A DNA stretch of 38,446 nucleotides from a virus. A program made the position numbers and the translations under genes. The stretch spans positions 1 through 38,446 of IMG/VR virus record IMGVR_UViG_3300050175_000061. One strand, written 5' to 3'. This document shows positions 18,815-36,740 of this stretch, piece by piece. How positions within the stretch are numbered: position 1 is the first letter of the stretch; each line of letters begins with the position of its first letter. The notes below the pieces were generated by a model. That model did no database searches, was not told the origin of the DNA, and saw nothing but the letters and a program-made list of their open reading frames with translations.

Positions 18815-19381
18815 ATGAACGAGCTAAAAAACACGGCAGAGAACCCTATGCAAATGGAGGTCACAGTATCAATAGACCTTAAATCTTCTATGCAAGTGGA
18901 TGCCCTTCGCGGTTTGCTATTATCTATAGGGGGAGGAAACCCTATTGTTAACGTGGTTGATGAGATCCACGACGTTTTTAACCCAAAAGGTTTAAGAACT
19001 GAAAGTCCGGCCGAAGAAGCGCCAAAAGTCGGCCTCATCAAAGATTTGCCGCTTACCGAGACTGTGAAAGAGAAGACTCAGCCTAAAAGAAAACGCAGAA
19101 CGAAGGCAGAAATAGCGAAGGAAAAAGAGGAAGCCGCCGAAGCAAAAGCAGAAGAGAGGGGCGACACTGTAGAGGAAAACGAAGCTGCACTGGAGAGTAG
19201 CCTAGAGGGCGGTACAACTTTAGACGATGTACGCGCGGCCGTTAGTGCTTCTATTCAAACGGGGGGAGCGGCCAATAAGAGGGAGATAATTAAAGAACTT
19301 AAGTCCCTTGGAGTCGACAGGGTACCAGACCTTGACTCTAAACACTTTGACAGCTTCATATCTAAAGTAAGAAGTCTGTGA
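18815..19381 (+). CDS. Hypothetical protein with basic linker
   Basis: A 188-residue protein with three parts: an N-terminal domain (about 1-65) starting MNELKNTAENPMQM, a strongly charged linker (KPKRKRRTKAEIAKEKEEA-type, about 85-125), and a C-terminal helical domain with TLDDVRAAVSASIQTGGAANK and SLGVDRVPDL. The basic linker suggests nucleic-acid contact. It stands at the head of the replication module, just upstream of the DUF2800 nuclease, with which its stop overlaps (GTGA). The start lies after a run of TAT triplets. No family is recognised with certainty. Confidence 0.68.
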   Translation: MNELKNTAENPMQMEVTVSIDLKSSMQVDALRGLLLSIGGGNPIVNVVDEIHDVFNPKGLRTESPAEEAPKVGLIKDLPLTETVKEKTQPKRKRRTKAEIAKEKEEAAEAKAEERGDTVEENEAALESSLEGGTTLDDVRAAVSASIQTGGAANKREIIKELKSLGVDRVPDLDSKHFDSFISKVRSL

Positions 19382-20571
19382 AAGCGCATTCCGAGAGGTC
19401 GCACGCCATGCTTTCCGCGTCAGGCGCGAGTAGGTGGATGAACTGCACCCCCTCTGCAAGGATGGAGGAGGAATTAAGAGAATCAGGTTTGGAAGAGGTG
19501 AGTTCCGATTTCGCAGCAGAAGGCACTCTTGCACATGAGATATCGGAGCTTGATTTACGAATAGCTTTGTACGTCGGACCCTCTGGAAAAGGGTCGGACT
19601 ACAAGAAGTGGAAGGATCAAAGAGAAGCCTTGACAATGCACCACCTTTATAAACCTGAAATGGAAAAGTACGTTTCGGAGTATGTGGAATACTGCTTAGA
19701 AAGGTTTTCGGTTGCCCAGATGATTTACCCTTTCGCCACATGTATAGTTGAGGGCCGCGCTGATTTCTCACAATGGGTAGACGGAGGCTTCGGTACTTCG
19801 GATTTTACGATAGTCTGCCCTGCATATATAGAGGTGATAGATCTCAAATACGGAAAAGGTGTGCAAGTTTTCGCCGATAAAAATGCCCAACTTAGACTAT
19901 ATGCGTTAGGTATGATGTCCCTGTACGACGCACTATTTGATTTTGAAAAGGTGTACTTTACAATTGTGCAGCCTAGACTACATCATATAGACTCTGCAAG
20001 CATGAGTGTGCATCGGTTACTTGCATGGGCGGACTCTGACGTAAAACCTGCAGCCAATAAGGCTTTGAAAGGAGAAGGGGAATGTGTTGTTGGGGATTGG
20101 TGTAGGTGGTGTAAAGCTAAACCCGTGTGCCGCACAATCGCAGATGTAGCACTATCTACTGCAAAAAAAGAATTCAAAGACCTTAAAACCTTATCGGATA
20201 AGGAGCTAGTCAAAATGTATAAGCTTGAAAAAACGATACGCTCTTGGATCGAAAGCTTATCAGAACATATGCATGCTACCGCTTTAAAAGGCACTAAGTA
20301 TGAAGGGCTTAAACTGGTGAGGGGCAAGGGTAGAAGGCAGTGGGTGGACGAGGAAAAGGCGATAGGGACACTTAGCCTATTAGTTGAAAACCCTGAAAGC
20401 TTAACAAAAACAAAAATTGCGAGCCTTACAGCTATAGAGAGCATGGTTGGGAAAAAAGAGTTCAAGTCCTTGGGATTAACTACTATGTCCGAAGGTGCAA
20501 TAAGACTCGTACCCGAGGAGGCCAAAGGTGAGCCGATCGGTTTGGAGGAAGCAAGGAAAGATTTCGAATAG
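19378..20571 (+). CDS. PD-(D/E)XK nuclease, DUF2800 type
   Basis: A 397-residue protein of the RecB-like nuclease group that is commonly paired with DUF2815 in phages. Visible signs: the N-terminal SASGASRWMNCTPSARMEEEL motif, AAEGTLAHEISE, GTSDFTIV near 140 with EVIDLKYGKG near 152-161 (catalytic D and D-x-K), QLRLYALGM, and Cys-containing GDWCRWCKAKPVC near 240-252, which with Cys26 could bind an Fe-S cluster as in AddB-type nucleases. Probably acts in recombination or end processing with the SSB encoded next. The GTG start overlaps the previous TGA. Confidence 0.85.
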   Translation: MKAHSERSHAMLSASGASRWMNCTPSARMEEELRESGLEEVSSDFAAEGTLAHEISELDLRIALYVGPSGKGSDYKKWKDQREALTMHHLYKPEMEKYVSEYVEYCLERFSVAQMIYPFATCIVEGRADFSQWVDGGFGTSDFTIVCPAYIEVIDLKYGKGVQVFADKNAQLRLYALGMMSLYDALFDFEKVYFTIVQPRLHHIDSASMSVHRLLAWADSDVKPAANKALKGEGECVVGDWCRWCKAKPVCRTIADVALSTAKKEFKDLKTLSDKELVKMYKLEKTIRSWIESLSEHMHATALKGTKYEGLKLVRGKGRRQWVDEEKAIGTLSLLVENPESLTKTKIASLTAIESMVGKKEFKSLGLTTMSEGAIRLVPEEAKGEPIGLEEARKDFE

Positions 20572-20597
20572 TTTAATTTCAATTTTAATCGACAATT

Positions 20598-21155
20598 ATG
20601 AGCGATACAAAAGTTATCACGGGGCTGGTGCGCTTTGCATACCCTAGTGTATTTGAAACGAAAGTGCAAGATGGTGAGGATTCAGAAAAGTATGAAGTGT
20701 GTATTTTAATCCCTAAAAGGAACAAGAAATGCTTAGCGGACATTGATGATGCCGTAGATGCAGCCTTAGAACTGGGCGATTCCAAGCTTAATAATAAAGA
20801 CCCGAGGAAAATAAGAGGGTTTAAATGGCCTCTGAAAGACGGTGACGTGGATAGACCAGACAGCCCTGAGTTTGAAGGCATGATGTACTTGAATGCGAGA
20901 ACCAAAAACAAGCCTACTATTCTGGACGCTGACAAGGATGAGATCATAGACAAGTCGGACTTTTACGCAGGGTGTTGGGGTAGAGCTTCTATTAATTTTT
21001 ACATGTTTGCGAATAAAAGCACTGGCGTTGGCTGTGGACTGAACAATTTGCAGAAATTAAAAGACGACGACCATCTGTCTGGCGCAACCTCTGCCAAGGA
21101 AGATTTCAAAGACGATCTGAGCGACGAAGATTTGGACGCTTACGAAATAATGTAG
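20598..21155 (+). CDS. Single-stranded DNA-binding protein, DUF2815 type
   Basis: A 185-residue protein with the DUF2815 pattern: VRFAYPSVFETK near the start, YEVCILIPKRNK, a long central insertion, a YLNARTKNKPTILD strand and FYAGCWGRASINFYMF near residue 130. It ends in a very acidic tail with a final Tyr/Glu/Ile/Met, as in T7 gp2.5-type SSBs, whose tails recruit partner enzymes. It follows the DUF2800 nuclease and precedes the polymerase, the usual order. A terminator (21169-21210) follows directly. Confidence 0.86.
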   Translation: MSDTKVITGLVRFAYPSVFETKVQDGEDSEKYEVCILIPKRNKKCLADIDDAVDAALELGDSKLNNKDPRKIRGFKWPLKDGDVDRPDSPEFEGMMYLNARTKNKPTILDADKDEIIDKSDFYAGCWGRASINFYMFANKSTGVGCGLNNLQKLKDDDHLSGATSAKEDFKDDLSDEDLDAYEIM

Positions 21156-21168
21156 GTTGGATATTACG

Positions 21169-21210
21169 GCGGCGCTGTAGGCATAAAACTCCCTCCAGCC
21201 CGCTTTTTTT
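21169..21210 (+). terminator. Intrinsic terminator after the SSB gene
   Basis: GCGGCGCTG at 21169-21177 can pair with CAGCCCGC at 21196-21203 (eight pairs with one bulged C), followed immediately by seven T residues (21204-21210). It lies between the SSB stop codon and the polymerase start and may reduce read-through into the polymerase operon. Confidence 0.65.
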
Positions 21211-21242
21211 AGTTCGTTTTACTACCCCCTCAACTTACTTTA

Positions 21243-23216
21243 ATGCGCCAATTACACATAGATTTGGAGACCTATAGCAGTGTCGACATAGCAAAAAGTG
21301 GAGTCTACAAGTATGTAGAATCCGTAGATTTCGAAATACTAATTATAGCTTATTGCTTCGACTATGAGGAAATAAAAATAATTGACTTGGCATCTGGGGA
21401 GTGCATGCCAGGAGAATTAATTGTCGCGCTAACAGACCCAGAAATCCAAAAAAAGGCTTTCAGTGCCGCTTTCGAAAGACTGTGTTTTAGGGCTGTCGGA
21501 TTACACACCCCTGTGATGCAGTGGAGATGTACAGAAGTGAAGGCCGCGTATTGTGGACTCCCAAGGCAGCTAGGAAAAGCAGGGAAGGCGCTTAGTTTCG
21601 GTATAGATAAAGCCAAAGATTCAGCAGGAAAGGCTCTGATCAAGTTTTTTTCATGTCCAGTAAAACCTACTAAAGCTAACGGATGGAGCTGCAGAAACCT
21701 GCCTGTGAACTACCCCGAGAAATGGGAGGCGTACAAAAACTATTGCGTACAGGATGTACAGGCAGAAAAGGCTGTAGACTTAGAACTGGAAGCTTTCGTA
21801 ATGCCTGAAAGGGAGTGGGAGTTCTACGCATTAGACCAAAGTATAAATGACAGAGGCATTCTACTCGATACCGACTTAGCAGAGTCCGCGTGTAAAATAG
21901 ATTCGGACAGTATGAAAGTGTTGCTGAATAAGCTAAAAAAAATTACGGGGGTGGACAACCCTAACAGCCCAACTCAACTTAAGAAGTGGCTCAGTGACGC
22001 CCTAGGAAAAGACATAAAATCAATAGCGGCTGACACAGTTAAAGGCATTCTTGAGATTACGGAAGATGAGGCTGTTAGGGAAGTCCTCCACCTAAGACAA
22101 AAAACATCTAAATCCTCCATAAAAAAATACAAAGCGATACTTAATTGCGTGTCAGAAGATGGCCGAGGCCATGGGTTCTTTAGGTTCTACGGAGCAAGCA
22201 GAACAGGGAGGTGGGCAGGCAGACTCGTGCAACTGCAAAATTTAACGAGAAACTACATGTCGGATTTAGGCACAGCCAGAGAAACTACAAAGTTAAGAGA
22301 TTTTGAGCTTATGGAAGTGGTGTACGGAGGGGCGTCAAATATACTGTCCCAACTCATCCGAACAGCATTGATAGCTCCCGATAAACACACCTTTGCGGTT
22401 GCTGATTTTAGTGCCATAGAGGCTCGTGTACTGGCTTGGTTAGCCTCTGAAAGCTGGAAAGAGGAAGTGTTCGCTTCACATGGGCTTATTTATGAAGCCA
22501 ACGCGGCTAACATGTTCGGTGTAGATATCTCAGAAGTTGACAAACCTCTAAGGCAAAAAGGGAAAATTGCGGAATTAGCGCTGGGGTATCAGGGGGGGGT
22601 AGGAGCATTGGTTCAAATGGGTGCTGAAAATATGGGTCTTTCACACACTGAAATGTCCGACATCGTAAAGAGATGGAGGGCTGCCAGTTATAACACCGTC
22701 AAGATGTGGAAAAGTTTCGAAGAATCCGCAAAATTGGCCATCTCATTTAATAAGAAAACAAAGACCGAATACAAAGGCGTGTGCTTCGAGATGATAGAAG
22801 GGTCTTTGGTTATCACATTGCCGTCAGGTCGTCAGCTGGTGTACCGAGACGCAAAGGTGATCGATAAAAAAATAAAGCTTAAGAACGGAGAAGAGTGGGA
22901 CACCCAAGGTATAACATACTGGGGTATGTCTGATCATAAGTGGAGTAAGTTGGACACTTATGGAGGTAAATTGACTGAGAACATCGTGCAAGCTATTGCG
23001 AGAGACATTCTAGCAGAGTCAATGTGTAGGGTTGACGCACTGGGGTGTCGCATAGTCATGCATGTACACGATGAGATCATTTGCGAGACTCCAAAAATAG
23101 GCGCGGAGAAAGCATTGCGCGAGATGTGCGAGATAATGGGGGAGGAGATTAGCTGGGCTGAGGGATTAAAATTAGGAGCTGAGGGGTATTTAACGACATT
23201 CTACAAAAAAGATTGA
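21243..23216 (+). CDS. DNA polymerase, family A, with 3'-5' exonuclease domain
   Basis: A 657-residue replicative polymerase. The exonuclease motif I HIDLETYS (Asp7, Glu9) opens the protein, and NYCVQDVQAEK near residue 172 fits Exo III. Polymerase motifs follow: motif A VADFSAIEARVLAWLA near 385-400, motif B RQKGKIAELALGYQGG near 437-452 and motif C MHVHDEIICE near 606-615. There is no 5'-3' exonuclease domain, as usual in phage enzymes. It would work with the primase-helicase that overlaps its stop by one base (TGATG). Read-through or a weak promoter after the terminator at 21169 must supply transcription. Confidence 0.95.
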   Translation: MRQLHIDLETYSSVDIAKSGVYKYVESVDFEILIIAYCFDYEEIKIIDLASGECMPGELIVALTDPEIQKKAFSAAFERLCFRAVGLHTPVMQWRCTEVKAAYCGLPRQLGKAGKALSFGIDKAKDSAGKALIKFFSCPVKPTKANGWSCRNLPVNYPEKWEAYKNYCVQDVQAEKAVDLELEAFVMPEREWEFYALDQSINDRGILLDTDLAESACKIDSDSMKVLLNKLKKITGVDNPNSPTQLKKWLSDALGKDIKSIAADTVKGILEITEDEAVREVLHLRQKTSKSSIKKYKAILNCVSEDGRGHGFFRFYGASRTGRWAGRLVQLQNLTRNYMSDLGTARETTKLRDFELMEVVYGGASNILSQLIRTALIAPDKHTFAVADFSAIEARVLAWLASESWKEEVFASHGLIYEANAANMFGVDISEVDKPLRQKGKIAELALGYQGGVGALVQMGAENMGLSHTEMSDIVKRWRAASYNTVKMWKSFEESAKLAISFNKKTKTEYKGVCFEMIEGSLVITLPSGRQLVYRDAKVIDKKIKLKNGEEWDTQGITYWGMSDHKWSKLDTYGGKLTENIVQAIARDILAESMCRVDALGCRIVMHVHDEIICETPKIGAEKALREMCEIMGEEISWAEGLKLGAEGYLTTFYKKD

Positions 23217-25630
23217 TGGGGAAACAGCAAACAGACACACTGATAGATATCGCTACTGGGCATAGCGTTAATTGCCGAAGGTGGGAAAACGTTAAGATGT
23301 CTTGGCCTGATCTAGTGTCTAAATTAACTACAGTTAATCGTACACCTGAGACGTATAAATCTTTCCTTAAAGCCTCCAAGGACGACCAACTGAAAATAAA
23401 AGATGTAGGAGGTCTAGTAGGGGGCTACGTTAGGGGAGGCAAGAGAAAAATAGGAAACATAATGCACAGGCAGTTGTTGACTTTGGATATAGACTACGCT
23501 GACAATATGTTTTGGGGTGATTTTTTAATGGCTTATGATGTTGCGGCAGTGCTACACTCCACGCACAAGCATTCCGAAGAGTCACCTAGATTCAGACTAG
23601 TCATTCCTTTGTCAAGAGAAGTAACACCAGACGAGTATGTAGCTATATCTAGAAAAGTGGGAGGTGTACTGGACATAGATGTTTTCGACCCCAGCACCTT
23701 CCAAAGTGAGAGGTTGATGTTTTGGCCTTCGGCTTCATGCGATGGAGTTTTCAAGTATGAGATACAGAAGGGCAGCTGGTTGGACGCAGACGAGGTGCTG
23801 GAGTCGTATGTTGATTGGACAGACTCAAGCGCTTGGCCTACCACAAAAACCGAGGTTGAAAAGTTAAACTCCCTCACAGATAAGCAAGAAGACCCCGAGT
23901 CAAAAAGGGGCATGGTAGGTGTTTTCTGTAGGACCTTCGGAATAGGAGAGGCGATTTCTGAGTTTTTGTCCTCGGAATATGAGTCGGGCAGCGAGGGGAG
24001 ATATACGTACCTTTCAGGGTCGACCTCTAACGGACTGGTAGTGTATCAAGATAAATGGGCATACTCCCACCACGGCACTGACCCCTGTGGGGGCAAACTG
24101 TGCAACTCCTTTGATCTCGTACGAATGCACAAATACGGGCATTTGGACGAGGGGCAAAGAGTGGGTGGGGCTAAAGCTAATAGCTTCAATGCCATGGTCG
24201 ATTTTTGCAAAGACGTAGATGCCGTAAAGAAGGTTATCGCATCCGAAACGATCACCGACGCAAGATACGATTTTGCGGACCCTCTAAACTTTGAAAAAGA
24301 CGATCCCAAAGAACTAGACATTGAGTGGGCTTCCGAGCTAGAGACTGACAAATCAGGAAAATACCTTTCCTCTGCCCATAATATAGGCACTATTATTTGC
24401 AGCGACCCTAATTTAAAAGGCGTTTTTAGAGAGAACTCTTTTGAGGATAAAAAATACGTGTTTAAATCAACTCCCTGGAGGGCGGTTAAAACCCCCGAAC
24501 CTTTTAGAGATGTTGACATTTCTGGACTTAGGGATTACCTAGATAAAGTGTACAACATAAGCGCAGCATTGAAGATTGAAGATTCTCTTAAATTAGCCTT
24601 TGATAGAAATAAGTACAACCCACTTGTCGACTATCTTAAGTCCCTAAAATGGGATGGGGTCAGCAGAATTGACAACCTCTTGATCGATTATTTTGGGGCG
24701 GACGACAACATCTACACTCGTGAAGCTATGAGGGTCACGCTAGTGGGCGCTGTGGCAAGAGCTTTCCGCCCAGGGGTCAAGTTTGATCTGGTTTTAACGC
24801 TCGTAGGCGCTACTCAAGGCACGGGGAAGAGCACTTTCTTTTCAAAGTTGGGGAAACAATGGTTCTCCGACAGCTTTCACACCCTCTCAGGAAAGCAGGC
24901 TTTCGAGCAGCTTCAAGGAGCGTGGATCATGGAAATGGCAGAGCTTTCAGGATTGGCAGAAGGCCGAGTGGAGGCAGTAAAACACTTTATCTCTAAGCAA
25001 ATAGACGTATACAGACCTGCTTTTGGTAAAATTATAGAGGATTTCAAGAGGAAGCTTATTTTCGTCGCGACTACAAACGTCAAAGATTTCCTAAAAGACC
25101 CCTCAGGGAATCGGAGGTTCATGCCTATCGACTTGAACGAGAGTAAGATAAAAAAGAATATACTTTCGAGCAAGGAGCTGACAGGGGAAGGGGTAGACCA
25201 GATTTGGGCAGAGGCCGTTGCTCTATACGAAAAAGGCTATAACATATACTTGAGTCCAGAGGCCGAAGTAATAGCAAGAAAAGAGCAGAGCGCGCACAGC
25301 GAGTTGGATGATAGGTCGGGTGTGGTAGTTGATTACCTAGAAAAGCTGCTGCCTGTTGACTGGGACTCGTTAGACCTGATAGACCGAAGAGATTTTATAA
25401 ACGATCCTCTGTCCCCCAACGGCATAGACCGAAGAGATTTCGTGTGCGTGGCCGAGCTTTGGTGCGAGTGTTTAGGGAAAAACAAAAGCGAGATGACCCG
25501 ATATAACACACGGAGTCTCAACGACATTTTAAGAAGCCTCCACGATTGGGAGGGCGTTAACACAACTAAAAATTTTAAGATTTATGGAACGCAAAAATAC
25601 TATCGCAGAAAGCGAGAAAACGTTGGATAA
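23216..25630 (+). CDS. Primase-helicase, BT4734/VirE type
   Basis: An 804-residue fusion. The N-terminal part resembles BT4734/VirE primase-polymerase domains: LLTLDIDYAD near residue 88 (candidate metal-binding D-x-D) and TFQSERLMFWPS near 165. A C-rich/linker region follows (CGGKLCNSFDLV near 295), then a VirE-type helicase with Walker A GATQGTGKST near 530, EMAELSGL near 575 and the ATTNVKDFLKDPSGNRRF sensor region near 620. It would prime and unwind DNA for the polymerase. I chose ATG 23216; the TTG at 23213 is in frame but less likely. The end overlaps the VRR-NUC gene by 47 nt. Confidence 0.88.
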   Translation: MGKQQTDTLIDIATGHSVNCRRWENVKMSWPDLVSKLTTVNRTPETYKSFLKASKDDQLKIKDVGGLVGGYVRGGKRKIGNIMHRQLLTLDIDYADNMFWGDFLMAYDVAAVLHSTHKHSEESPRFRLVIPLSREVTPDEYVAISRKVGGVLDIDVFDPSTFQSERLMFWPSASCDGVFKYEIQKGSWLDADEVLESYVDWTDSSAWPTTKTEVEKLNSLTDKQEDPESKRGMVGVFCRTFGIGEAISEFLSSEYESGSEGRYTYLSGSTSNGLVVYQDKWAYSHHGTDPCGGKLCNSFDLVRMHKYGHLDEGQRVGGAKANSFNAMVDFCKDVDAVKKVIASETITDARYDFADPLNFEKDDPKELDIEWASELETDKSGKYLSSAHNIGTIICSDPNLKGVFRENSFEDKKYVFKSTPWRAVKTPEPFRDVDISGLRDYLDKVYNISAALKIEDSLKLAFDRNKYNPLVDYLKSLKWDGVSRIDNLLIDYFGADDNIYTREAMRVTLVGAVARAFRPGVKFDLVLTLVGATQGTGKSTFFSKLGKQWFSDSFHTLSGKQAFEQLQGAWIMEMAELSGLAEGRVEAVKHFISKQIDVYRPAFGKIIEDFKRKLIFVATTNVKDFLKDPSGNRRFMPIDLNESKIKKNILSSKELTGEGVDQIWAEAVALYEKGYNIYLSPEAEVIARKEQSAHSELDDRSGVVVDYLEKLLPVDWDSLDLIDRRDFINDPLSPNGIDRRDFVCVAELWCECLGKNKSEMTRYNTRSLNDILRSLHDWEGVNTTKNFKIYGTQKYYRRKRENVG

Positions 25631-25883
25631 AAAACTGGTCAGGAAAGTGAGAGAGCTGGGAGGACTAAGCATCAAGCTGAGCGCCCTGCACTTCACAGGC
25701 TTGCCAGATAGGATGTGCTTAGTGCCTGGAGGGAAGATCGCTTTCGCAGAGATGAAGGGTACAGGTGAAGAGTCCTCAAGAATCCAAAAAACAGTACACA
25801 AGAAGCTAAGGGAGCTTGGATTTGCGGTGGAGGTGGTAGATTCTACTAATTCTTTAAATATTTTTCTAAAAAATAACTTTTAA
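25584..25883 (+). CDS. VRR-NUC domain nuclease
   Basis: A 99-residue stand-alone VRR-NUC protein. The key pattern is present: a Lys-rich first helix, G-x-x-x-K-L, GLPDRMCLVPGG at residues 39-50, then AFAEMKGTGEESSRIQ with the catalytic E-x-K. This fold cuts branched DNA such as Holliday junctions. The gene starts within the end of the primase-helicase gene, an overlap of 47 nt, indicating tight coupling. It is the size typical of phage versions. Probably resolves replication or recombination intermediates. Confidence 0.9.
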   Translation: MERKNTIAESEKTLDKKLVRKVRELGGLSIKLSALHFTGLPDRMCLVPGGKIAFAEMKGTGEESSRIQKTVHKKLRELGFAVEVVDSTNSLNIFLKNNF

Positions 25884-25895
25884 GACCAAACAATC

Positions 25896-26204
25896 ATGAA
25901 AATCAAATTGATCATATCAATCGCACTGATCGCTCTACTCTGTGAGTGCAGTCCGAAAGTACAAGATTTTGAAGATAGCAGAGACCTCGTGTGGGTCAGG
26001 GTAGCAAGGAAAGAAGAAGTGTGGCACAAAGATACTTTTGAGGGAGGCTATGTGGAATATTTGTTGTTCGTACACTGCTTTAGCCAGTCTAAAATCCTGA
26101 TTTCGAAAAACCTAAACGTTTTGGAAGTCAACAGTTACACTTTCCGCAGAGTGTCTCAAGGCCAGTTCTACCACAAAAACGAATTGCTTAACGTGATACT
26201 TTGA
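25896..26204 (+). CDS. Predicted lipoprotein, copy 1 of a paralogous pair
   Basis: A 102-residue protein with an N-terminal signal (IKLIISIALIALL) and a lipobox-like LLCEC, with Cys18 the likely acylated residue. After the Cys it reads SPKVQDFEDSR and then WVRVARKEE. The protein at 31033 shares the Cys-Ser-x-Lys start, the EDSR and WVRVARKE segments, a central LFVH/LYVH strand and the FYHKNEL/YYHNSEL end, so the two are clearly paralogues. Phage lipoproteins are often made early and block entry of other phages; that role is inferred only. It stands in the replication operon between nuclease and helicase. Confidence 0.78.
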   Translation: MKIKLIISIALIALLCECSPKVQDFEDSRDLVWVRVARKEEVWHKDTFEGGYVEYLLFVHCFSQSKILISKNLNVLEVNSYTFRRVSQGQFYHKNELLNVIL

Positions 26205-26245
26205 CCAAATCTAATGTAGTTTTTAACTTTAATAATATAAGAAAT

Positions 26246-26419
26246 ATGGATTCCAAAACAAGAATTATCGCCAGAAACATGGCTTGGGAAAGGTGTAAAG
26301 GGGAGCTAAATAGTATCATGCACACATTTGTAGTATCAGAAAGGTCAAAGTTTAGAGCCTTTAAAAAAACATGTCAGGAGTTGACAGAGCGAGTGGAAAG
26401 AGGACGGCTGCTCGAATAA
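26246..26419 (+). CDS. Small helical hypothetical protein
   Basis: A 57-residue protein (MDSKTRIIARNMAWERCKGELN at the start, shown here as MDSKTRIIARNMAWERCKG). The ATG at 246 bases into 26 kb, position 26246, follows an AT-rich leader; a TTG at 26201 is in frame but would overlap the lipoprotein stop. The sequence is a continuous charged helix. Small proteins with an A-W-E-R-x-K-G-E-L pattern occur in phages of Bacteroidota near replication genes, but a function is not known to me. Confidence 0.6.
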   Translation: MDSKTRIIARNMAWERCKGELNSIMHTFVVSERSKFRAFKKTCQELTERVERGRLLE

Positions 26420-26448
26420 CTTTCCATAACACTAAAAAACATAGATTT

Positions 26449-27843
26449 ATGTTACAAGAATCAAACCTTCACAAATACCAAAAGACAGGGGTAGATCATG
26501 TATTAAATAATCCTTTCTGCGGGCTGTTCTTTGATATGGGTCTGGGGAAGACTGCCACTACGCTCACCGCGCTAAATTGGCTTATGAACGTTGACCTAGA
26601 AATAAGTCGAGTTTTAATAATAGCGCCCAAAAGGGTGGTGGAGAGCGTGTGGTCTGCAGAGATCGAGAAATGGGAACATTTAAAAAACCTACGGGTATCT
26701 AAGGTGTCAGGCTGTGAAAAGCAGAGGATACAAGCCTTAAAATCAGATGCAGATATATTCTTGCTTGGGAGGGATAATGTGGCTTGGCTGTGTGGACATT
26801 TCGGAGGTTTGAAACTCCCCTTTGACATGCTGGTCATCGACGAATCTAGCAGTTTCAAAAACCCTAACTCACAGCGGTTCAAAGCTCTGAGGCGCGTGCA
26901 ACCTTCTTTTGATAGAGTTGTCCTTCTGACAGGCACACCTGCCCCTAACGGGCTGGCCGATCTGTGGAGTCAGATATATTTGCTAGATAGAGGAGAGAGG
27001 CTAGGGAAGACACTGGAGAGTTTCAGGAACGATTTCGTTAAACCAGATAAGTATAATGGTGCGATCGTATACAGCTACAAGATAAGGAGTAAAGATCACG
27101 AAAAGAAGCTGTACGATAACATAAAAGACATCTGCCTATCCATGAAAGCGGATGATTATTTAGAGCTGCCAGATAGGGTGGACAACTTCGTGGAAGTTGA
27201 GTTTACTCCGAAACTAAAGGCTGAATATGAGTCTTTCGAAGAAGAAAAAGTTTTAGAGCTGAAAGAACAAAACGAGGAGATAACAGCTGTTAACGCCGCA
27301 GCGCTGTACATGAAATTGTTGCAGTTCAGCAATGGCGCTATATATGGAGATGACGGAGATTGGCACGAGGTTCACAGACTAAAGCTAGACGCGCTTAATG
27401 AGATAGTAGAAAACGCAAACGGTGTACCTGTGCTAGTAGCCTACTCCTTCAAGCATGATATGGAGCGTATTTTGAAAGCTTTAAAAAAATACAACCCTGT
27501 GCAGTTTGATGGGGATGAACACGTCAGGGCTTGGAACAGGTGTGAGATACCAGTTATGGTAATGCACCCTGCTAGCGGTGGTCACGGCCTAAACCTCCAA
27601 TCTGGCGGCAACCTCATCGTGTGGTTTGGGCTGCCTAGAAGCCTAGAGTTGTATCAGCAATTTAACGCCAGAATTCTCAGACAGGGAGCGGATTTCAAAA
27701 ACATAGTTATTCATCACTTGTGCGCTAAAGGCACAATGGACGGGGACGTTATGGCTGGATTGAGAAGGAAAACTAGCCTACAAGATGCACTGCTTGCAGC
27801 TGTCAAAGCCAAGATAGCTAAATACCTGAGAGACCAATTTTAA
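26449..27843 (+). CDS. SNF2-like / DEAD-box superfamily 2 helicase
   Basis: A 464-residue protein from ATG 26449. Helicase motifs are clear: the Q-like HKYQKTGV near residue 8, motif I FDMGLGKT near 28-35, Ia IIAPKRVVESVW, motif II VIDESSSFKN near 129, motif III LLTGTPAPN near 160, and motifs V/VI in HGLNLQSGGNLIV and QFNARILRQG near 405. The short, single-protein SNF2 form is common in phage replication modules. It could remodel forks or recombination intermediates. An in-frame ATG at 26371 overlaps the preceding gene and adds 26 residues unlike the family, so I prefer 26449. Confidence 0.88.
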   Translation: MLQESNLHKYQKTGVDHVLNNPFCGLFFDMGLGKTATTLTALNWLMNVDLEISRVLIIAPKRVVESVWSAEIEKWEHLKNLRVSKVSGCEKQRIQALKSDADIFLLGRDNVAWLCGHFGGLKLPFDMLVIDESSSFKNPNSQRFKALRRVQPSFDRVVLLTGTPAPNGLADLWSQIYLLDRGERLGKTLESFRNDFVKPDKYNGAIVYSYKIRSKDHEKKLYDNIKDICLSMKADDYLELPDRVDNFVEVEFTPKLKAEYESFEEEKVLELKEQNEEITAVNAAALYMKLLQFSNGAIYGDDGDWHEVHRLKLDALNEIVENANGVPVLVAYSFKHDMERILKALKKYNPVQFDGDEHVRAWNRCEIPVMVMHPASGGHGLNLQSGGNLIVWFGLPRSLELYQQFNARILRQGADFKNIVIHHLCAKGTMDGDVMAGLRRKTSLQDALLAAVKAKIAKYLRDQF

Positions 27844-31374: not shown

Positions 31375-31515
31375 ATGCACGGTCAAGGTCAAGGTCAAGG
31401 TCAAGGTCACGGTTACGGTCAAGGTCAAGGTCATGGTCAGGGTCAGGGTCATTCTAAAGAAAAGGAGAAGTTAATTAAGTTTAATATGCCCCCATTGTGT
31501 CGATGGGGGCTATAA
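31375..31515 (+). CDS. 46-residue Gly-Gln-rich microprotein
   Basis: The ORF begins MHGQGQGQGQGHGYGQ and continues as alternating Gly with Gln/His/Tyr up to residue 25, then a basic SKEKEKLIKF part. It is encoded by a GGTCAA-type hexamer repeat. The end overlaps a GC-rich hairpin at 31488-31510. I cannot tell whether it is translated; the reading frame is fully open and in a normal intergenic place between two genes. Compositions like this are seen in low-complexity, self-associating proteins. No family known. Confidence 0.4.
   Translation: MHGQGQGQGQGHGYGQGQGHGQGQGHSKEKEKLIKFNMPPLCRWGL
31379..31451 (+). repeat. GGTCAA-type hexamer tandem repeat
   Basis: About twelve consecutive hexamers of the form GGTCAA/GGTCAC/GGTCAT/GGTCAG/GGTTAC between the genes ending at 31347 and starting at 31526. 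The repeats are in the frame of the 31375 microprotein and change mostly in third codon positions or between Gln and His, which suggests selection on the Gly-Gln/His pattern or simple slippage. Confidence 0.85.
31488..31510 (+). other. GC-rich perfect hairpin before the 31526 gene
   Basis: GCCCCCAT (31488-31495) and ATGGGGGC (31503-31510) form a perfect 8-bp stem with a 7-nt loop. No T run follows, so it is not a classical intrinsic terminator. It ends 15 nt before the GTG at 31526 and close to an AGGAG sequence, so it could shape translation of that gene. Confidence 0.55.
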
Positions 31516-31525
31516 ATCAGGAGAC

Positions 31526-31981
31526 GTGAAAAACATAGGAAAAGTAATAAACTGGTTTGATGAAAACTACGTGGAAGAGCCGGCCTTCGCTATGGTATTG
31601 CTGGCGGATTTCTCCCGTAAGACTCTTTTGGACGTCGATTTCATTTATGGGATCTGCAGATTCACTAAAGAGAATAAACTTTCGAGCAGACACCTAAAGG
31701 TGGAGCTTGCATATCTATCAATTTTTCTAAACGACCTCTGCCCCGCTCGATCTCCAAAAAGTAGAAAGGTATTGGAGTACGTATACTGTTTCATTCTCGA
31801 AGAATATAATTGCCGAAGGATGGAAGTGAAATGTATAATGATCCACTTCCTCTATCACAATCGGCCTTGCCCAATATCTAAGGTATTTTCCACAATTGAG
31901 GAAGCTAGACTATTGGGTATGAAGCCTATTGATGTGTGTAAAATATCCGTGGAGCTGGACGAGACACTAGAAAACCTCTGA
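31526..31981 (+). CDS. Hypothetical protein with a Shine-Dalgarno-like leader
   Basis: A 151-residue helical protein starting with GTG. AGGAG lies 3 nt upstream of the start codon region (CAGGAGACGTG), unusual in this genome, and a stable hairpin lies just before it. The sequence has several Cys (CRF, LCPARS, YCFILEEYNC, KCIMI) and basic patches but no motif I recognise. Its hydrophobic face suggests a folded helical bundle. It belongs to the same accessory stretch as the 32027 gene. Confidence 0.62.
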   Translation: MKNIGKVINWFDENYVEEPAFAMVLLADFSRKTLLDVDFIYGICRFTKENKLSSRHLKVELAYLSIFLNDLCPARSPKSRKVLEYVYCFILEEYNCRRMEVKCIMIHFLYHNRPCPISKVFSTIEEARLLGMKPIDVCKISVELDETLENL

Positions 31982-32026
31982 CAATACCAGACATTTAAAT
32001 ATTACATAAACTAAATAAATTAAACT

Positions 32027-32452
32027 ATGTTAAATTCAAAAGTTAAAACTGTTAAATCCAAAGGGTTTGTAAAAAGTTTCAATGAGCTGGCGAACCGAAT
32101 AGGTTCAAAACTGGAGGGTATTTCATCATCCAATGCGCCCTCGTATGATGCCATAAACCCCGATCACTACAAAAAATATAGTCTGGAGTCCATACAAATC
32201 ATGGAGTCCGCATGGGGCCCAGAAAAGGTCGCTGTGTACTGTGAAATATCAGCCTTCAAATACCGTATGCGTATGGGGAATAAGCCTGCTAGCACCGTGT
32301 CCGAGGACTTGAAGAAAGAGGAGTGGTATCTAAGAAAAGCTAAGGAAATGAGAAGTAAGATAGACCCTTTTAGATCATCTAAATCCAAAATGGAATTCCA
32401 AGTGAAATCTGAGGATGTTGTAAAAAGAAAACACCGCACCCATGGTAACTAA
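32027..32452 (+). CDS. DUF3310-type protein
   Basis: A 141-residue protein with a clear DUF3310 pattern: INPDHYKKYSLESIQIME near residues 43-60, a following helix EKVAVYCEISAFKYRMRMGNK and SEDLKKEEWYLRKA near 95-110. Proteins of this family are small and common in phages; some annotations call them nucleotide kinases, which is not proven. The first 40 residues form a basic extension not typical of the core. The stop overlaps the next gene by 11 nt. Confidence 0.82.
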   Translation: MLNSKVKTVKSKGFVKSFNELANRIGSKLEGISSSNAPSYDAINPDHYKKYSLESIQIMESAWGPEKVAVYCEISAFKYRMRMGNKPASTVSEDLKKEEWYLRKAKEMRSKIDPFRSSKSKMEFQVKSEDVVKRKHRTHGN

Positions 32453-32699
32453 AAGGAAACAAGATCCTAGGTCACTGGAGGCTTACATTGAGGAGTGTCA
32501 TACAGATAAGAAGCTCAGAAGGTTGAAACATTTGAAGATTGCGCTGGCTGTGATCTCGATTGCAGGGCTTTGGACGGTTAGAGGGAGAGCCGAAGGGTCA
32601 GCAATCGTGGTAATATTAAGCACATTAGTTTACATTTATATGGGTTATGAGACCTCGAAAAGGAAAGCTGACATAAGGGACAACTACACAGGTCTGTAA
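32442..32699 (+). CDS. Two-pass membrane protein
   Basis: An 85-residue protein with a charged N-terminus (about 1-30), two hydrophobic segments (LKIALAVISIAGLWTV; AIVVILSTLVYIYMGY) and a charged end. It starts inside the previous gene and is the last gene before the strong terminator at 32737. No family recognised. Confidence 0.6.
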   Translation: MVTKRKQDPRSLEAYIEECHTDKKLRRLKHLKIALAVISIAGLWTVRGRAEGSAIVVILSTLVYIYMGYETSKRKADIRDNYTGL

Positions 32700-32736
32700 A
32701 TTTTTAAGTTAAATTTAAGTTGGAGAGTTAATTTTA

Positions 32737-32767
32737 AACCTCAAGGTTCATGCCTTGGGGTTTTTTT
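32737..32767 (+). terminator. Strong intrinsic terminator closing the accessory operon
   Basis: AACCTCAAGG (32737-32746) pairs with CCTTGGGGTT (32753-32762) as a 10-bp stem with one T-G wobble and a 6-nt loop, followed by further T residues to 32767. An outer AT-rich inverted repeat (AGTTAATTTTAA at 32726 and its complement at 32772-32783) flanks it. It separates the long upstream transcript from the palindrome and the early promoter. Confidence 0.85.
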
Positions 32768-32890
32768 ATAGTTAAAATTAACTTTTAAGCTCACCTGTTT
32801 TAGCTATTTTAAGTCAAAATTAAAGTTTTCAATTCTGTGTGTTTGGTGTGGATTTTCATAACCCTTTGATACTTAGTGTGTTACCGCCCC

Positions 32891-33169
32891 TAAACAATAT
32901 AAACAATAGTAAACAATCCTTGTTTAGGCGTAACTCTCTCAAAATCAACTACTTATAGCCTCTATAAACAATAAACAATAAATCGGGTTTAACTGTATGT
33001 TTTTAAAAAAAAGATTTAGATTATTTATAGGTATTAATATATGAGTTTTATTTTTTATATTATATGAATGGACCCGATTTATTGTTTATTGTTTATATCG
33101 CTTGTAAAAAGCTGTAACTCAGAGAGTTACGTCTAAACAATCATTGTTTATTATTGTTTATATTGTTTA
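32891..33169 (+). repeat. 279-bp imperfect palindrome with TAAACAAT iterons; candidate origin or operator
   Basis: Left arm 32891-32988 and right arm 33072-33169 are inverted copies with no indels around the centre at 33030. The outer ~49 bp (TAAACAATATAAACAATA at its start) differ at about five positions; the inner 26 bp (TATAAACAATAAACAATAAA then TCGGGT) are perfect. Between them lies a diverged part. Eleven exact TAAACAAT/ATTGTTTA copies occur (32891, 32900, 32910, 32965, 32972, 33081, 33088, 33134, 33143, 33153, 33162). The 82-bp core is very AT-rich. No ORF is present. Iterons around an AT-rich core suggest a replication origin; clustered operators are the alternative. Confidence 0.85.
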
Positions 33170-33182
33170 TAAAATAATTTTC

Positions 33183-33213
33183 TTGTTTTTGTAAAAATAA
33201 TTTTGTATCTTTG
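33183..33213 (+). promoter_or_regulatory. Bacteroidota promoter TTG-N20-TATCTTTG
   Basis: TTG at 33183-33185, a 20-nt AT-rich spacer and TATCTTTG at 33206-33213 match the -33/-7 consensus of Bacteroidota exactly. The start codon at 33246 lies 32 nt downstream. It is the best promoter in the window and adjoins the palindrome, so it probably drives the small-gene array to the right. Confidence 0.82.
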
Positions 33214-33245
33214 GGTATCGAAAAAACAACTTAAACAAAAACATC

Positions 33246-33521
33246 ATGACACTAGTAGAGACGACACCTCACGGATTAAAAATCAACTTCAAAACTAAAA
33301 TGGTAGACTGCCTTGGTCATCTGAGATCAGAAGCGCGTCTTAAAAGGTACAAGGCAAGGTTAGACGCAGGCTTGCCTTGCGACGTTATGGCTCTTCACGG
33401 GTTAGATAATTTGTCCAGCTTAACTACTATGGGGGCTTACAAAATAAAGATGATGAGCGCCGAAAAGCTTGTAGCTTTGATCAATGATCACGAAGGTTAT
33501 ACTTGTTTAGAATTGAACTAA
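33246..33521 (+). CDS. First gene of the early array, hypothetical
   Basis: A 91-residue basic protein (MTLVETTPHGLKINFKTK at the start). The middle is a charged helix (RSEARLKRYKARLDAG), and the end has KMMSAEKLVALINDHEGY. No known motif. It is the first gene behind the strongest promoter and next to the palindrome, so it should be made early and in quantity; small basic early proteins are often host take-over factors, which is speculation here. Confidence 0.62.
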   Translation: MTLVETTPHGLKINFKTKMVDCLGHLRSEARLKRYKARLDAGLPCDVMALHGLDNLSSLTTMGAYKIKMMSAEKLVALINDHEGYTCLELN

Positions 33522-33536
33522 GGTTTTAACACAGCT

Positions 33537-33710
33537 ATGAAAAGTAGATATTACAAAGATACAATGCACGGGCTGGTGGCGTACGCCACAAGTAGGCAAA
33601 GCGCTTGGACACTCATAAGAAACAAGTGTCACGGACTTAAAATGGAAGTCCCCACGTATGACAAAGTGGAGGTGTGCGCGACTATCAGACGCGGAGGGTC
33701 AGCTCCGTAA
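33537..33710 (+). CDS. 57-residue basic small protein
   Basis: An ORF from ATG 33537 reading MKSRYYKDTMHGLVAYATS and ending TIRRGGSAP. It follows the 33246 gene by 15 nt and precedes a 98-nt gap without a gene. Basic, with two Cys. No family recognised; accepted because it is cleanly placed in the operon and its length and composition resemble its neighbours. Confidence 0.48.
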   Translation: MKSRYYKDTMHGLVAYATSRQSAWTLIRNKCHGLKMEVPTYDKVEVCATIRRGGSAP

Positions 33711-33808
33711 GCAAAGCCGTCGGATCTACCAGAGAGATACATATAGGTTGAAGGATTCCATGAAAAACTCGACCTCCCTTAATACTTGGGAAATTTAAAT
33801 TTAAGAAA

Positions 33809-34783
33809 ATGACCGAAGAAGAAAACAAAAAGCTCACAGAGTGGGGAAACCTGAATAGAACAGATTACCAAACACCTCCTGAGAATTTGAAAAAACTAGA
33901 AAGACGTACACACGAATTGAAAATTTGGAAAGAGTATTTCAAAGATGTGTTGACAGGCCGCAAAAAATTTGAACTTAGGGGGAAAGATCGAGCCTATGGC
34001 GAAGGTGACACCCTTATATTAAAAGAGTGGGACAACACTACCGAGACCTACACTGGTAGAGAGGTAAGGAGAGAAGTGACTTATGTTTTTGAGGGAGGCC
34101 TTTTCGGTTTGGAGTTAGGATATGTAATCTTAGGTATTGAACCTGTAAAAAAGGCAGTAGTTAAAAAATTCAAACTTACAGAAGAGAGCAAAATAAATAG
34201 CTCAGGTGTAAATTTGTTTAGGATAGAAGCTACCGAAGATTTCAAAGGCATATACAAAGGGCAGAAAGGTGGTTGGGTCGAGAATTTAGACAATCTGGAC
34301 GGTGATGCGTGGATATACCAATGCGCAGAGGTTTATGGGGGAGCTAAGGTCTATGGACACGCAGAAGTCCACGGGAATGCAAAAGTGTACGGGGATGCGA
34401 AGGTTTACGGGTATGCAAAAGCTTATGGGTATGCAGAAATTTACGGAGATGCAGAAGCTTATGGGTGCGTGCAGGTACACGGAAGATCTAAGGTTTATAA
34501 GCATGCAAAAGTTTACGCATATGCAGAAATTTTCGAGTGCGCAGAAATTTACGGTAACGTAGAAATTTACGGGTGCGCAAGAGTTCACGGGAATGCGACA
34601 GTTCACGGACATGCAGAAATTTTCGAGGACGCAGAAATTTTCGAGGACGCAGACGTTTTTGAATGGTCAAAAGCATTTGGAGCTTCAAAGATTCGTGGGA
34701 GCTCTACCGTTTGTGGGCGTGCGGAAATAGGCGGAGATAAAGTGATTGAAGGGGATGAAGAGGTTTATAAAGCATCAACTTAA
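33809..34783 (+). CDS. DUF3850 (ASCH-like) domain fused to a hexapeptide beta-helix
   Basis: A 324-residue fusion. Residues about 35-113 match DUF3850, an ASCH/PUA-like RNA-binding-type domain: HELKIWKEYFKDVLTGRKKF, AYGEGDTLILKEW and ELGYVILGI. A linker with FRIEATEDFKGIYKGQKGGW (about 143-165) is typical of phage repeat proteins. Residues about 170-310 are six-residue repeats such as VYGDAK, VHGNAK and IFEDAE, which should form a left-handed beta-helix. The repeats are visible in DNA as 18-nt units. Both halves occur in phages; their fusion is unusual to me. It is preceded by an AT-rich leader. Confidence 0.82.
   Translation: MTEEENKKLTEWGNLNRTDYQTPPENLKKLERRTHELKIWKEYFKDVLTGRKKFELRGKDRAYGEGDTLILKEWDNTTETYTGREVRREVTYVFEGGLFGLELGYVILGIEPVKKAVVKKFKLTEESKINSSGVNLFRIEATEDFKGIYKGQKGGWVENLDNLDGDAWIYQCAEVYGGAKVYGHAEVHGNAKVYGDAKVYGYAKAYGYAEIYGDAEAYGCVQVHGRSKVYKHAKVYAYAEIFECAEIYGNVEIYGCARVHGNATVHGHAEIFEDAEIFEDADVFEWSKAFGASKIRGSSTVCGRAEIGGDKVIEGDEEVYKAST
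34314..34670 (+). repeat. 18-nt degenerate coding repeat (beta-helix)
   Basis: About twenty imperfect copies of an 18-nt unit of the form gcAGAAvTTtAcGGGnAT encode the six-residue [VI]-[YHF]-[GE]-x-A-[EK] pattern. Copies differ in many positions, so the array is old or diversified, with a few near-identical neighbours (for example at 34615-34650) hinting at recent duplication. Confidence 0.75.
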
Positions 34784-34791
34784 AAGTTCAT

Positions 34792-35376
34792 ATGAGTAAG
34801 ATAAAAAGAATTTTTTACGACCTTGAAACTACAGGATTAGACCCAGAGAATTGCGCTATACACCAGATATCGGCGATTGTAGAAGTGGACTATCAGATAG
34901 TAGAGGAAATCAACCTTAGGATGAGACCTCACATGGGGGCGGACATATCAAAACAAGCTTTGGAGATAGGGGGCGTTTCTTTTTCAGACTTGATGCGAAA
35001 CCCGCTGCAGTATGATCAGATCACCGAGTTTAAAAGATCTCTGGGAAAACACGTAGACAAGTATGACCCCAAGGACAAGTACCACTTAGTGGGGTTCTGC
35101 AATCGTAATTTTGATGACGAGTTCTTGAGGAACTGGTTCTCTCGAAACGAAGACAACTATTATGGATCGTGGTTTTGGTCTGATACACAAGATGTCTCTG
35201 TGATGGCTTCCACTTATTTAGAGGCAGAAAGGTCTACGATGCGTAACTTTAAACTGGGTACAGTAGCTAGTAAACTGGGGATAGAAGTAGACACTGACGA
35301 GCTACACGACGCGAGGTATGATGTGAGTTTGACAAGAGAGATATACAATAGCATCAGAGGGTTTGATATAATGTAG
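34792..35376 (+). CDS. DnaQ-like 3'-5' exonuclease
   Basis: A 194-residue DEDDh exonuclease. Exo I is FYDLETTG (Asp10, Glu12), Exo II is GFCNRNFDDEFL near residue 103-114, and Exo III is LHDARYDVSLT near 178-188. The family polymerase at 21243 already has an exonuclease domain, so this enzyme probably has another job, such as degrading host DNA or RNA, or scavenging nucleotides, which I cannot tell. ATG 34792 lies 8 nt after the previous stop. A small gap with the possible frameshifted zinc ribbon follows. Confidence 0.88.
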   Translation: MSKIKRIFYDLETTGLDPENCAIHQISAIVEVDYQIVEEINLRMRPHMGADISKQALEIGGVSFSDLMRNPLQYDQITEFKRSLGKHVDKYDPKDKYHLVGFCNRNFDDEFLRNWFSRNEDNYYGSWFWSDTQDVSVMASTYLEAERSTMRNFKLGTVASKLGIEVDTDELHDARYDVSLTREIYNSIRGFDIM

Positions 35377-35414
35377 AGAGAAAAAATAACTTAAAACAAC
35401 ACAAAACTTAGGGG

Positions 35415-35614
35415 ATGAAAAATTACGAAAAAACTATTGCAAAGAACAGGACAAAAAAGAAGAACAGACTTGCCCTGAATGTGGAAGTAAAAACTACATC
35501 GAAGTAACAAGAGGAGAAAACTGTTACGCTTGTGGGTACTTTGTATGCTACCCATGGATGTTCACTATAAAGATAAAGAGTCAGCAGACTAGTGAGCCAC
35601 GGTCAGGGGAGTGA
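35415..35614 (+). CDS. Candidate zinc-ribbon protein reached by -1 frameshift
   Basis: ATG 35415 opens a short frame (MKNYEKTIAKNRTKK) that stops at about 35505. At 35453-35459 it holds A AAA AAG in the zero-frame phase. A -1 slip there leads into EEQTCPECGSKNYIEV and GENCYACGYFVCY, a zinc ribbon with C-x2-C and C-x2-C 13 residues apart. In that frame there is no ATG, GTG or TTG after the upstream stop at 35387. So the ribbon is made by frameshifting, or the gene carries an indel. The frame ends at 35614, inside a terminator stem. Confidence 0.42.
35453..35459 (+). promoter_or_regulatory. Second A AAA AAG slippery heptamer
   Basis: AAAAAAG lies as ACA AAA AAG in the frame of ATG 35415, the same heptamer and phase as at 8611. 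The -1 frame downstream encodes a zinc ribbon. No strong stem directly after it was found by eye, apart from the terminator hairpin 135 nt downstream. Confidence 0.4.
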
Positions 35615-35645
35615 GAAACCCCAATATCGGCCGTGGCTATTTTTA
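35595..35645 (+). terminator. Intrinsic terminator, long hairpin
   Basis: AGCCACGG (35595-35602) pairs with CCGTGGCT (35631-35638), and inside it GGGG (35606-35609) with CCCC (35619-35622). ATTTTT follows. It ends 13 nt before ATG 35658, which argues against the GTG 35592 start for the next gene. Confidence 0.72.
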
Positions 35646-35657
35646 AAACTTATAATC

Positions 35658-35906
35658 ATGAACTGGACCAACGTAAAAGATAGACACTTCGCCAAAATAA
35701 TCGATACTGAAAAAAGCTATGTATGGGAATCTAAGTATGACAAACCTTTTTTAGCTGCAGTAGCCACTTATGAGGGATGGGACATTGAAAAGGTTATACT
35801 AGAAGATGGAGCAGGGTTGAAAATATACTCTGATAATGAAACACACCCTTACGGGTGGGATATGACAGATGTAGCTTTTTGGTGTGAGATCACTGATCCC
35901 GAATAA
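35658..35906 (+). CDS. Hypothetical protein, DUF551-like at best
   Basis: An 82-residue protein beginning MNWTNVKDRHFAKIID. The ending DMTDVAFWCEITDPE and the early W-x-x-V-K-D pattern faintly resemble DUF551-type phage proteins (which begin W-I-S-V-K-D), but the resemblance is too weak to be a call. I chose ATG 35658 because a terminator hairpin spans the in-frame GTG 35592 and the bases after it. A 51-nt gap follows. Confidence 0.6.
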   Translation: MNWTNVKDRHFAKIIDTEKSYVWESKYDKPFLAAVATYEGWDIEKVILEDGAGLKIYSDNETHPYGWDMTDVAFWCEITDPE

Positions 35907-35957
35907 TTTTACTTCTTTTCGATACTCAACTACACAACTATAAACTCCGATAAAACT

Positions 35958-36335
35958 ATGGCCTTACTAAGATGTGATGAATGCGGAAGTAATGAAACCA
36001 ATTCTTTTGGGAGTTGGGATACACCAATAAAAATATCATGTACCAAATGCTCTACTATGAAAAAGAAAAGTACTACCCCCGTATCGAGGGAGAAAGAAAG
36101 TTCCACTGAAATAAACATCTCTGATATAGGGGTGGGCAGGATGACTACTACTGCTACTGTGATACTTACGACCTTAATGATTGAAGACGATGTAGTAAGC
36201 AGGGCAAGAGTTCTTGAGTCGGTAATGAAACACCTCTCAATAGAACCAGGGGACTTCGAGAAAATGAGAAGAAACGAAAAGAAGCATATAGCACTCGAGT
36301 ACGATAACGACGAAACGTACAGTTGGGAATGTTAG
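35958..36335 (+). CDS. Zinc-ribbon protein
   Basis: A 125-residue protein whose N-terminus has two C-x2-C pairs (Cys6/Cys9 in RCDECGS and Cys28/Cys31 in SCTKCS), a zinc ribbon. A basic, Ser/Thr-rich linker follows, then a helical C-terminal part with EDDVVSRARVLESVMK and MRRNEKKH. The layout, ribbon plus helical tail, suits a DNA- or RNA-contacting regulator. It is not obviously related to the 35415 ribbon beyond the ribbon itself. Function unknown. Confidence 0.68.
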   Translation: MALLRCDECGSNETNSFGSWDTPIKISCTKCSTMKKKSTTPVSREKESSTEINISDIGVGRMTTTATVILTTLMIEDDVVSRARVLESVMKHLSIEPGDFEKMRRNEKKHIALEYDNDETYSWEC

Positions 36336-36404
36336 GAAGAAAAAGGGGGGTAAAAGAGATGCAGTTTTAAAAGTGGAGATAGACGATTCAAAATAGGCAA
36401 AACC

Positions 36405-36740
36405 GTGAACATAACAAGAAGAGATAAAAAGGAAAACCCAAGAGATTCTAAGAGGGACATGTTTTACCAGACAAAGCAATGGAAAGACGATGTCGCTTAC
36501 GTGTGGGACAGGGACAGGGGTCTGTGTCAGGAGTGTCTGGATAAGGGCAGGAGGCACTACCTTGTGCGAGGTACCAAGAACATAGACAGGCAGGGTACAG
36601 TGGATCACATAAGACCCAGGCCGCGAAATGCGCCGTACAACCCCGAGACTTACGACCACGTGGATAACTTAAGGTTAATAGGGTCTAGACACCACGCGAG
36701 TAAAAGTTCCAGAGAACGGTCAAATATAAATCGGACATGA
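36405..36740 (+). CDS. HNH endonuclease
   Basis: A 111-residue HNH protein starting with GTG. Motifs: CQECLDKG near residues 41-48, GTVDHIRPR near 64-72 (the D-H pair), and NLRLIGSRHHASKSS near 88-102 (N and H with S-K-S). In many cos-type phages a small HNH nuclease encoded beside the terminase genes supports packaging cuts. Here it lies about 2 kb from the right end, which would be close to terS if the molecule is circular, consistent with such a role. The stop overlaps the next ATG as ATGA. Confidence 0.85.
   Translation: MNITRRDKKENPRDSKRDMFYQTKQWKDDVAYVWDRDRGLCQECLDKGRRHYLVRGTKNIDRQGTVDHIRPRPRNAPYNPETYDHVDNLRLIGSRHHASKSSRERSNINRT

Follow-up and report, generated by a model that had tools for sequence, protein, structure and literature searches.

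A mirrored iteron array as a putative VirE-dependent replication origin in phages of Bacteroidota-type bacteria

What a long noncoding palindrome does in a phage genome is the question raised by this locus. The window (the whole stretch of 38,446 nucleotides that was analysed) is a virus contig with head, packaging and tail genes as well as a replication module, from a phage of Bacteroidota-type bacteria, and a mirrored element of 279 bp occupies its positions 32891–33169. The element region showed no DNA similarity to known phages. We found no description of the element in open papers (most subscription journals lay outside this scope), and a literal text search of the literature for its octamer, TAAACAAT, retrieved only unrelated papers among the matches listed. 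The place at which replication starts in these Bacteroidota phages is, as far as we could find, apparently unmapped.

The mirrored element and its neighbourhood

The two arms of the element (32891–32988 and 33072–33169) are complementary at 81 of 98 positions without a gap, and pairing is perfect over the inner 26 bp. Among 200 dinucleotide shuffles of the region, the highest count was 50 paired positions, and the arm match at the best other place in the window was approximately 0.5. Exact TAAACAAT octamers occur 11 times in the 38-kb window, all of them inside the element (5 in the left arm and 6 in the right), compared with chance expectations of 2.65 for the whole window and 0.2 for the element region. 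A first-pass annotation of this DNA had described ungapped 98-bp arms with perfect inner ends, eleven copies and no coding capacity, and had judged the arrangement too regular for chance; each of these statements held on re-measurement. It had also described an 82-bp core of almost pure A/T. The core is indeed AT-rich, but the stretch between the arms measures 83 bp with an A/T content of 85.5% (90% in the middle 61 bp), and this wording was therefore slightly generous. The arms were 98% identical in iteron columns and 69% identical elsewhere, indicating that the mirror symmetry consists mostly of iterons and fixed spacing. The folding check proposed in the same annotation gave z = –15 relative to shuffles for the element as a single DNA strand; such a strong fold is expected, because any long inverted repeat would produce it.

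The limits of the element, which has no strand of its own, were set from the palindrome and octamer counts against shuffles and from the same grammar in related contigs. The left outer cluster (32891–32926, plus strand) contains exact TAAACAAT copies at 32891, 32900 and 32910 and a degenerate inverted half, CTTGTTTA, at 32919–32926, and an outer triplet or dyad of this kind is present in many relatives. It is followed by a 38-bp left spacer (32927–32964), whose length but not sequence is conserved across phages, and by the left inner direct iteron pair in a 7-bp register (32965–32979, plus strand). The 101 bp between the inner pairs (32980–33080, 80% A/T) form the core and presumed unwinding region. 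On the other side of the core lie the right inner direct pair (33081–33095, minus strand), the right spacer, also of 38 bp (33096–33133; placed from the sequence and the spacer statistics), and the right outer cluster (33134–33169, minus strand), which is composed of the dyad TAAACAATCATTGTTTA and two inverted iterons. The segment TAAACAATAATAAACAATCATTGTTTA of this last cluster recurs, on either strand and with the middle base set aside, in Croceibacter phage P2559Y. A telomere-resolvase target was considered and rejected: the symmetry centre holds no perfect palindrome, the perfect 26 bp lie at the inner arm ends, and the central 83 bp fall outside the repeat arms.

The element is noncoding and lies between a terminator-like intrinsic hairpin that closes the upstream operon (32736–32763, plus strand) and a Bacteroidota-type promoter, TTG-N20-TATCTTTG (33183–33213, plus strand), which is located 14 bp past the last iteron and is the sole such match in the window. 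The first gene downstream (33246–33521, plus strand, 91 aa) has no family match, and no relatives of the two genes downstream of the element were found in viral contigs. Searches for a helix-turn-helix (HTH) in the genes flanking the element gave no match, the HTH genes of the window being located at 18390 and 37752; the element thus departs from a temperate-phage operator array, in which the cognate repressor adjoins its operators. Of the scanned genes, none was recognised as an integrase.

The replication operon is headed by a gene for a repressor-like HTH protein (18390–18791, plus strand), and a second array stands just 5΄ of this gene in other phages, but not in the window. The rest of the module (19378–27843, plus strand) encodes an exonuclease, SSB, DNA polymerase A, VirE, a VRR-NUC-like nuclease and an SNF2-like helicase, and the small gene for the nuclease has a P2559Y counterpart annotated as VRR-NUC. 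The window contained no recognisable RepA-like or O-like protein. DnaA boxes (TTATCCACA, up to one mismatch) were absent from positions 31895–36535 and were as numerous window-wide as expected by chance; with no box cluster, the element does not resemble a DnaA-dependent origin. GC skew, another check named in the first-pass annotation, stayed positive from end to end of the window and did not change sign at 33 kb. Such a skew is expected if transcription dominates, but it does not help to locate an origin. A search of Rfam gave one sub-threshold match only, outside the element, and the tRNA search was negative. Two further features of the neighbourhood were noted: six TGACCTTG/CAAGGTCA-type repeats within approximately 45 bp at 31381–31433, which are unrelated to TAAACAAT, and, at 33809–34783, a DUF3850/ASCH domain whose attached C-terminal half resembles Streptococcus and Lactobacillus phage proteins, not those of Bacteroidota phages.

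Recurrence and spacing of the arrays

We searched for similar arrays using a three-iteron fragment as the pattern, and obtained 36 stretches in viral contigs, compared with 3 iteron-poor matches among 84,980 prokaryote genomes. A common grammar unites the arrays: an outer triplet or dyad, a spacer of 36–40 bp, an inner direct pair and an AT-rich core, followed by the mirror image. In the outer part, direct copies are 9–10 bp apart with an inverted partner at 9 bp; the distance from the outer part to the inner pair is 45–47 bp from start to start, the inner pair is spaced by 7–9 bp, and the cores are mostly 80–110 bp long. Although our survey allowed spacers of any length up to approximately 90 bp, 35 of 43 distinct dyad-to-pair spacers measured 36–40 bp while their sequences were not conserved, from which we conclude that selection on array spacing is real, as had been suggested from the window alone. 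The motif ACGCG was enriched in TAAACAAT cores (9 of 22, against 1.3 expected) and was also present in 4 of 7 comparison-set cores.

P2559Y carries two TAAACAAT arrays, one extending from 42881 to approximately 43340 across the record start and the other (23619–23820) just upstream of its replication operon. Several contigs also contain a second array; in these genomes, one array lies 5΄ of the HTH gene and the other elsewhere, often 5΄ of the gene for the terminase small subunit (TerS). Promoters like that at 33183–33213 were found within 90 bp of about half of the arrays inspected. In P2559Y we also noted an eleven-copy GAAACTCCTAAGG repeat (5077–5233) inside the annotated ORF 5017–5514.

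This comparison with related phages, which the first-pass annotation had named as a check, bears on two alternative readings. The annotation had mentioned an assembly artefact as a way in which the palindrome might prove spurious, and chimeric reads can indeed yield long inverted repeats. However, the arms are mismatched at 17 positions, most of which lie outside the iterons, and the same grammar was found in dozens of independent and unrelated contigs and in the complete P2559Y genome; this excludes an artefact, and we give practically no weight to a chance inverted duplication either. The position of many arrays just 5΄ of TerS would suit a packaging site (cos or pac) bound by the terminase small subunit, but the array of the window is several kilobases from the terminase genes and other arrays stand at the head of the replication operon. 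Moreover, the large terminase subunit (TerL) of the window does not cluster with that of P2559Y, though the iterons of both are identical, and the repeat type follows VirE instead. We therefore regard a packaging site as very improbable.

VirE and its C-terminal domain as the candidate reader

Of 18 array-bearing contigs, 12 encode a phrog_256 VirE, among them all those longer than 33 kb, and the two largest array contigs that lack it contain none of the replication genes searched. The VirE/VapE-type primase-helicase of the window (23213–25630, plus strand; phrog_256), which we propose as the initiator, is homologous to SaPI PriRep1. It matched PF05272 (E = 1e-76) and PDB entry 7pds_A (E = 2.9e-71; Foldseek against 7pds, E = 2.5e-23), which is PriRep1 with dsDNA. 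Its closest VirE relative among deposited phages is that of P2559Y (54%). In two contigs (G003 and G001, belonging to L012 and L008, respectively), the VirE match was reported to contain an in-frame TGA, which may be an error, a readthrough or a recoded codon.

Six VirE phages from other lineages have an iteron array in a noncoding gap of 280–330 bp immediately 3΄ of VirE, and the copy counts of these arrays were not reached by any of 300 shuffles. These phages infect, with their repeat units in brackets, Enterococcus (GTATCCA), Listeria (GTGTCAACA), Acutalibacter (GGTAACGA), Bacteroides (phage Bacuni_F1; GTAAACG), Corynebacterium (GGGACAAC) and Paenibacillus (CTGCAACA). Ten other sampled VirE phages displayed at most weak repeats 3΄ of VirE; among these ten, lytic Bacteroides and Phocaeicola phages with a more distant VirE had no array there. 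The gap is closed in the window, in P2559Y, in Elizabethkingia phage TCUEAP1 and in Bacteroides phage BF503P2. In the window, the next gene overlaps the end of VirE (25630), leaving no noncoding gap, and the array lies approximately 7.3 kb downstream. TCUEAP1 has, like the window, a mirrored palindrome, here with 130-nt arms that are 82% complementary, a core of approximately 80–98 bp and pairs at 9 bp; it lies upstream of the replication operon and is unannotated. It differs in its unit, TGTCTCAA, and correspondingly in its VirE C-terminus. The arrays of the other lineages and of TCUEAP1 indicate that the architecture persists while the repeat unit changes. BF503P2 contained no exact 7-mer array. 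In this phage (L007), TGGCA/TGCCA repeats with an 8-bp period occupy 44780–45170 within a 1.4-kb noncoding region, which may be its version of the origin. Similar sequence occurs at 22045–22125, upstream of its 18390-family gene, and at 45672–45765, before the gene at 46180.

Changes in the repeat unit are accompanied by changes at the end of VirE. Residues 747–805 (25451–25627, plus strand) were 64.5% identical within TAAACAAT phages, compared with 44% to BF503P2 and 30% to TCUEAP1, whereas the corresponding values for the helicase part were 60%, 59% and 54%. These last 59 residues displayed the largest contrast between same-iteron and other-iteron phages along VirE; BF503P2 exhibited a weaker, secondary contrast in the primase part (residues ~161–229). 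In a tree of residues 1–740, BF503P2 and TCUEAP1 shared a well-supported clade with the TAAACAAT phages, whereas in a tree of the C-terminus they were placed on long branches. AlphaFold2 predicted the C-terminal end to be a winged helix (pLDDT ~76–91), with the signature residues on the last helix and the wing. The association between residue 787 and the first iteron base (P = 0.04) was chosen after the fact, and a one-residue, one-base link is only suggestive.

We also searched viral contigs blindly, with the VirE C-terminal domain alone, which confirmed 369 loci, and fetched 79 new loci. A bidirectional 7-mer cluster was present in 44 of them, and 38 of these contigs were absent from the array search. 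An AAACAA-type cluster was found in 34 of the 38 new contigs, usually 7–8 kb upstream of the VirE C-terminus, and two further variants, TAAACGAT and TCACACAAT, appeared; since some of these contigs are near-identical, the independent lineages are fewer than the count. No clear cluster was seen in the remaining 35 loci, many of which are short or end before the expected array position, and 5 of the 35 belong to contigs already known to have arrays beyond the fetched stretch.

Together, the covariation with the iterons, the structure prediction and the blind retrieval point to the VirE primase-helicase itself as the protein that recognises the iterons, presumably via its C-terminal winged helix. 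The first-pass annotation had left the recogniser unknown and had suggested the regulators at 18390 and 37776 for testing; this evidence favours the VirE C-terminus, not the regulators at 18390 or 37752.

It is nevertheless conceivable that the iterons are a clustered operator, bound by the 18390-family HTH protein or another regulator to control the adjoining promoter, with no origin present. The promoter lies close to the array in the window and near about half of the others, second arrays immediately precede the 18390-family gene, and the family is encoded by nearly all array contigs longer than 33 kb. It is a diverged family with weak matches to phage repressors, and among 50,697 phage records it is confined to array-type or repeat-bearing Bacteroidota phages, namely P2559Y, the BF503P2 group and TCUEAP1. 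However, the HTH did not diverge in any special way between phages whose iterons differ, the contrast in the other half of the protein being the same, and we rejected this protein as the iteron reader. In addition, the arrays 3΄ of VirE exist in phages that lack this family, the window has no array at 18390, and a symmetric complex of 279 bp around an AT-rich core is more than an operator needs. An operator without an origin therefore appears improbable.

Proposed roles in replication initiation and transcription

We consider it likely that the element is the replication origin of the phage, or one of its origins, at which VirE, bound to the iterons through its C-terminal winged helix, would assemble as a pair of opposed complexes that melt the core. 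It is very probably a VirE-dependent origin relocated from its usual place to a position beside a promoter. We directly observed how the element is laid out and conserved, that it is linked to VirE and that it covaries with the VirE C-terminus. An origin design, already preferred in the first-pass annotation, agrees with the comparison of sequences, in which the same architecture stands 3΄ of VirE in related phages, as does the SaPI origin.

By analogy with SaPI-type systems, from which we derive the binding, the oligomer number, the melting and the initiation, several VirE copies would bind the TAAACAAT iterons through their C-terminal winged-helix domains. Two opposed helicase complexes, one per arm and both facing the core, would then be built on the mirrored arrangement of outer dyad, ~38 bp and inner direct pair. 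Melting of the AT-rich core would allow one helicase to be loaded per strand, and replication would start with the co-encoded polymerase and SSB. Binding may also influence transcription from the adjoining promoter.

Several observations count against an origin: the arrays adjoin promoters and, as expected of operators, are often located 5΄ of TerS or of the HTH gene; several genomes have two arrays; the skew lacks a switch; and 35 of the 79 blindly fetched loci lack a clear cluster. The abutting promoters and second arrays leave room for a regulatory role. A VirE-bound origin might also repress or time the neighbouring operon, with two copies in some genomes, at the replication and terminase operons. 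The paired arrays of P2559Y and several contigs and the abutting promoters are consistent with such a dual function, but a promoter-side position may only reflect the available noncoding space; we regard it as a genuine possibility from which we lean away, and it extends the proposed origin rather than denying it. A more elaborate form, to which we assign a rather small chance, is a relocatable origin combined with a switch: one or two copies would head the replication and terminase operons, bound VirE would both fire replication and set the early-to-late transition in transcription, and copy number and place would be reshuffled from lineage to lineage under a constant spacing grammar.

If the element is the origin as proposed, an origin, an initiator and a recognition code that relates the iteron unit to the VirE winged helix are all predicted for this group of Bacteroidota phages, and the sequence rule finds candidate origins in unannotated viral contigs. 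The phages would also be tied to the self-loading helicases of SaPI and SCC elements, and origin specificity and its evolution could thus be tested by swapping phage parts.

SaPI origins have oppositely oriented iteron sets around an AT-rich region, and the window likewise has oppositely oriented short iteron sets flanking an AT-rich region, together with a phage-encoded helicase of the VapE/PriRep family. The initiator of SaPI origins with Rep/PriRep (VapE-type) is thus of the same family (PriRep1). According to the part of PMC7581432 covered here, SaPI origins contain multiple short iterons, these are read by the C-terminal domain of Rep, as we propose for the VirE of the window, and the origin lies just 3΄ of the Rep gene. 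The last arrangement is shared by the six VirE phages of other lineages but not by the window, whose array is distant from its helicase gene and beside a promoter. Strict membership of the SaPI type fails on this one feature, and the strict mirrored grammar, with its fixed 36–40 bp spacers, the two copies per genome in several relatives and the Bacteroidota hosts are further differences.

The putative origin of SCCmec Cch2 is similar in that its repeats, downstream of the gene of a related helicase, are bound by the C-terminal domain of that helicase, and the isolated Cch2 domain binds its iterons (PMC7581432, in part). It differs in having three AAGTG direct repeats only, and no mirrored array is described for it in that part of the paper. 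Iteron plasmid and lambda-type origins also place iterons beside an AT-rich unwinding region; in those systems, a separate initiator recruits the host helicase, whereas in the window the proposed initiator is the helicase itself.
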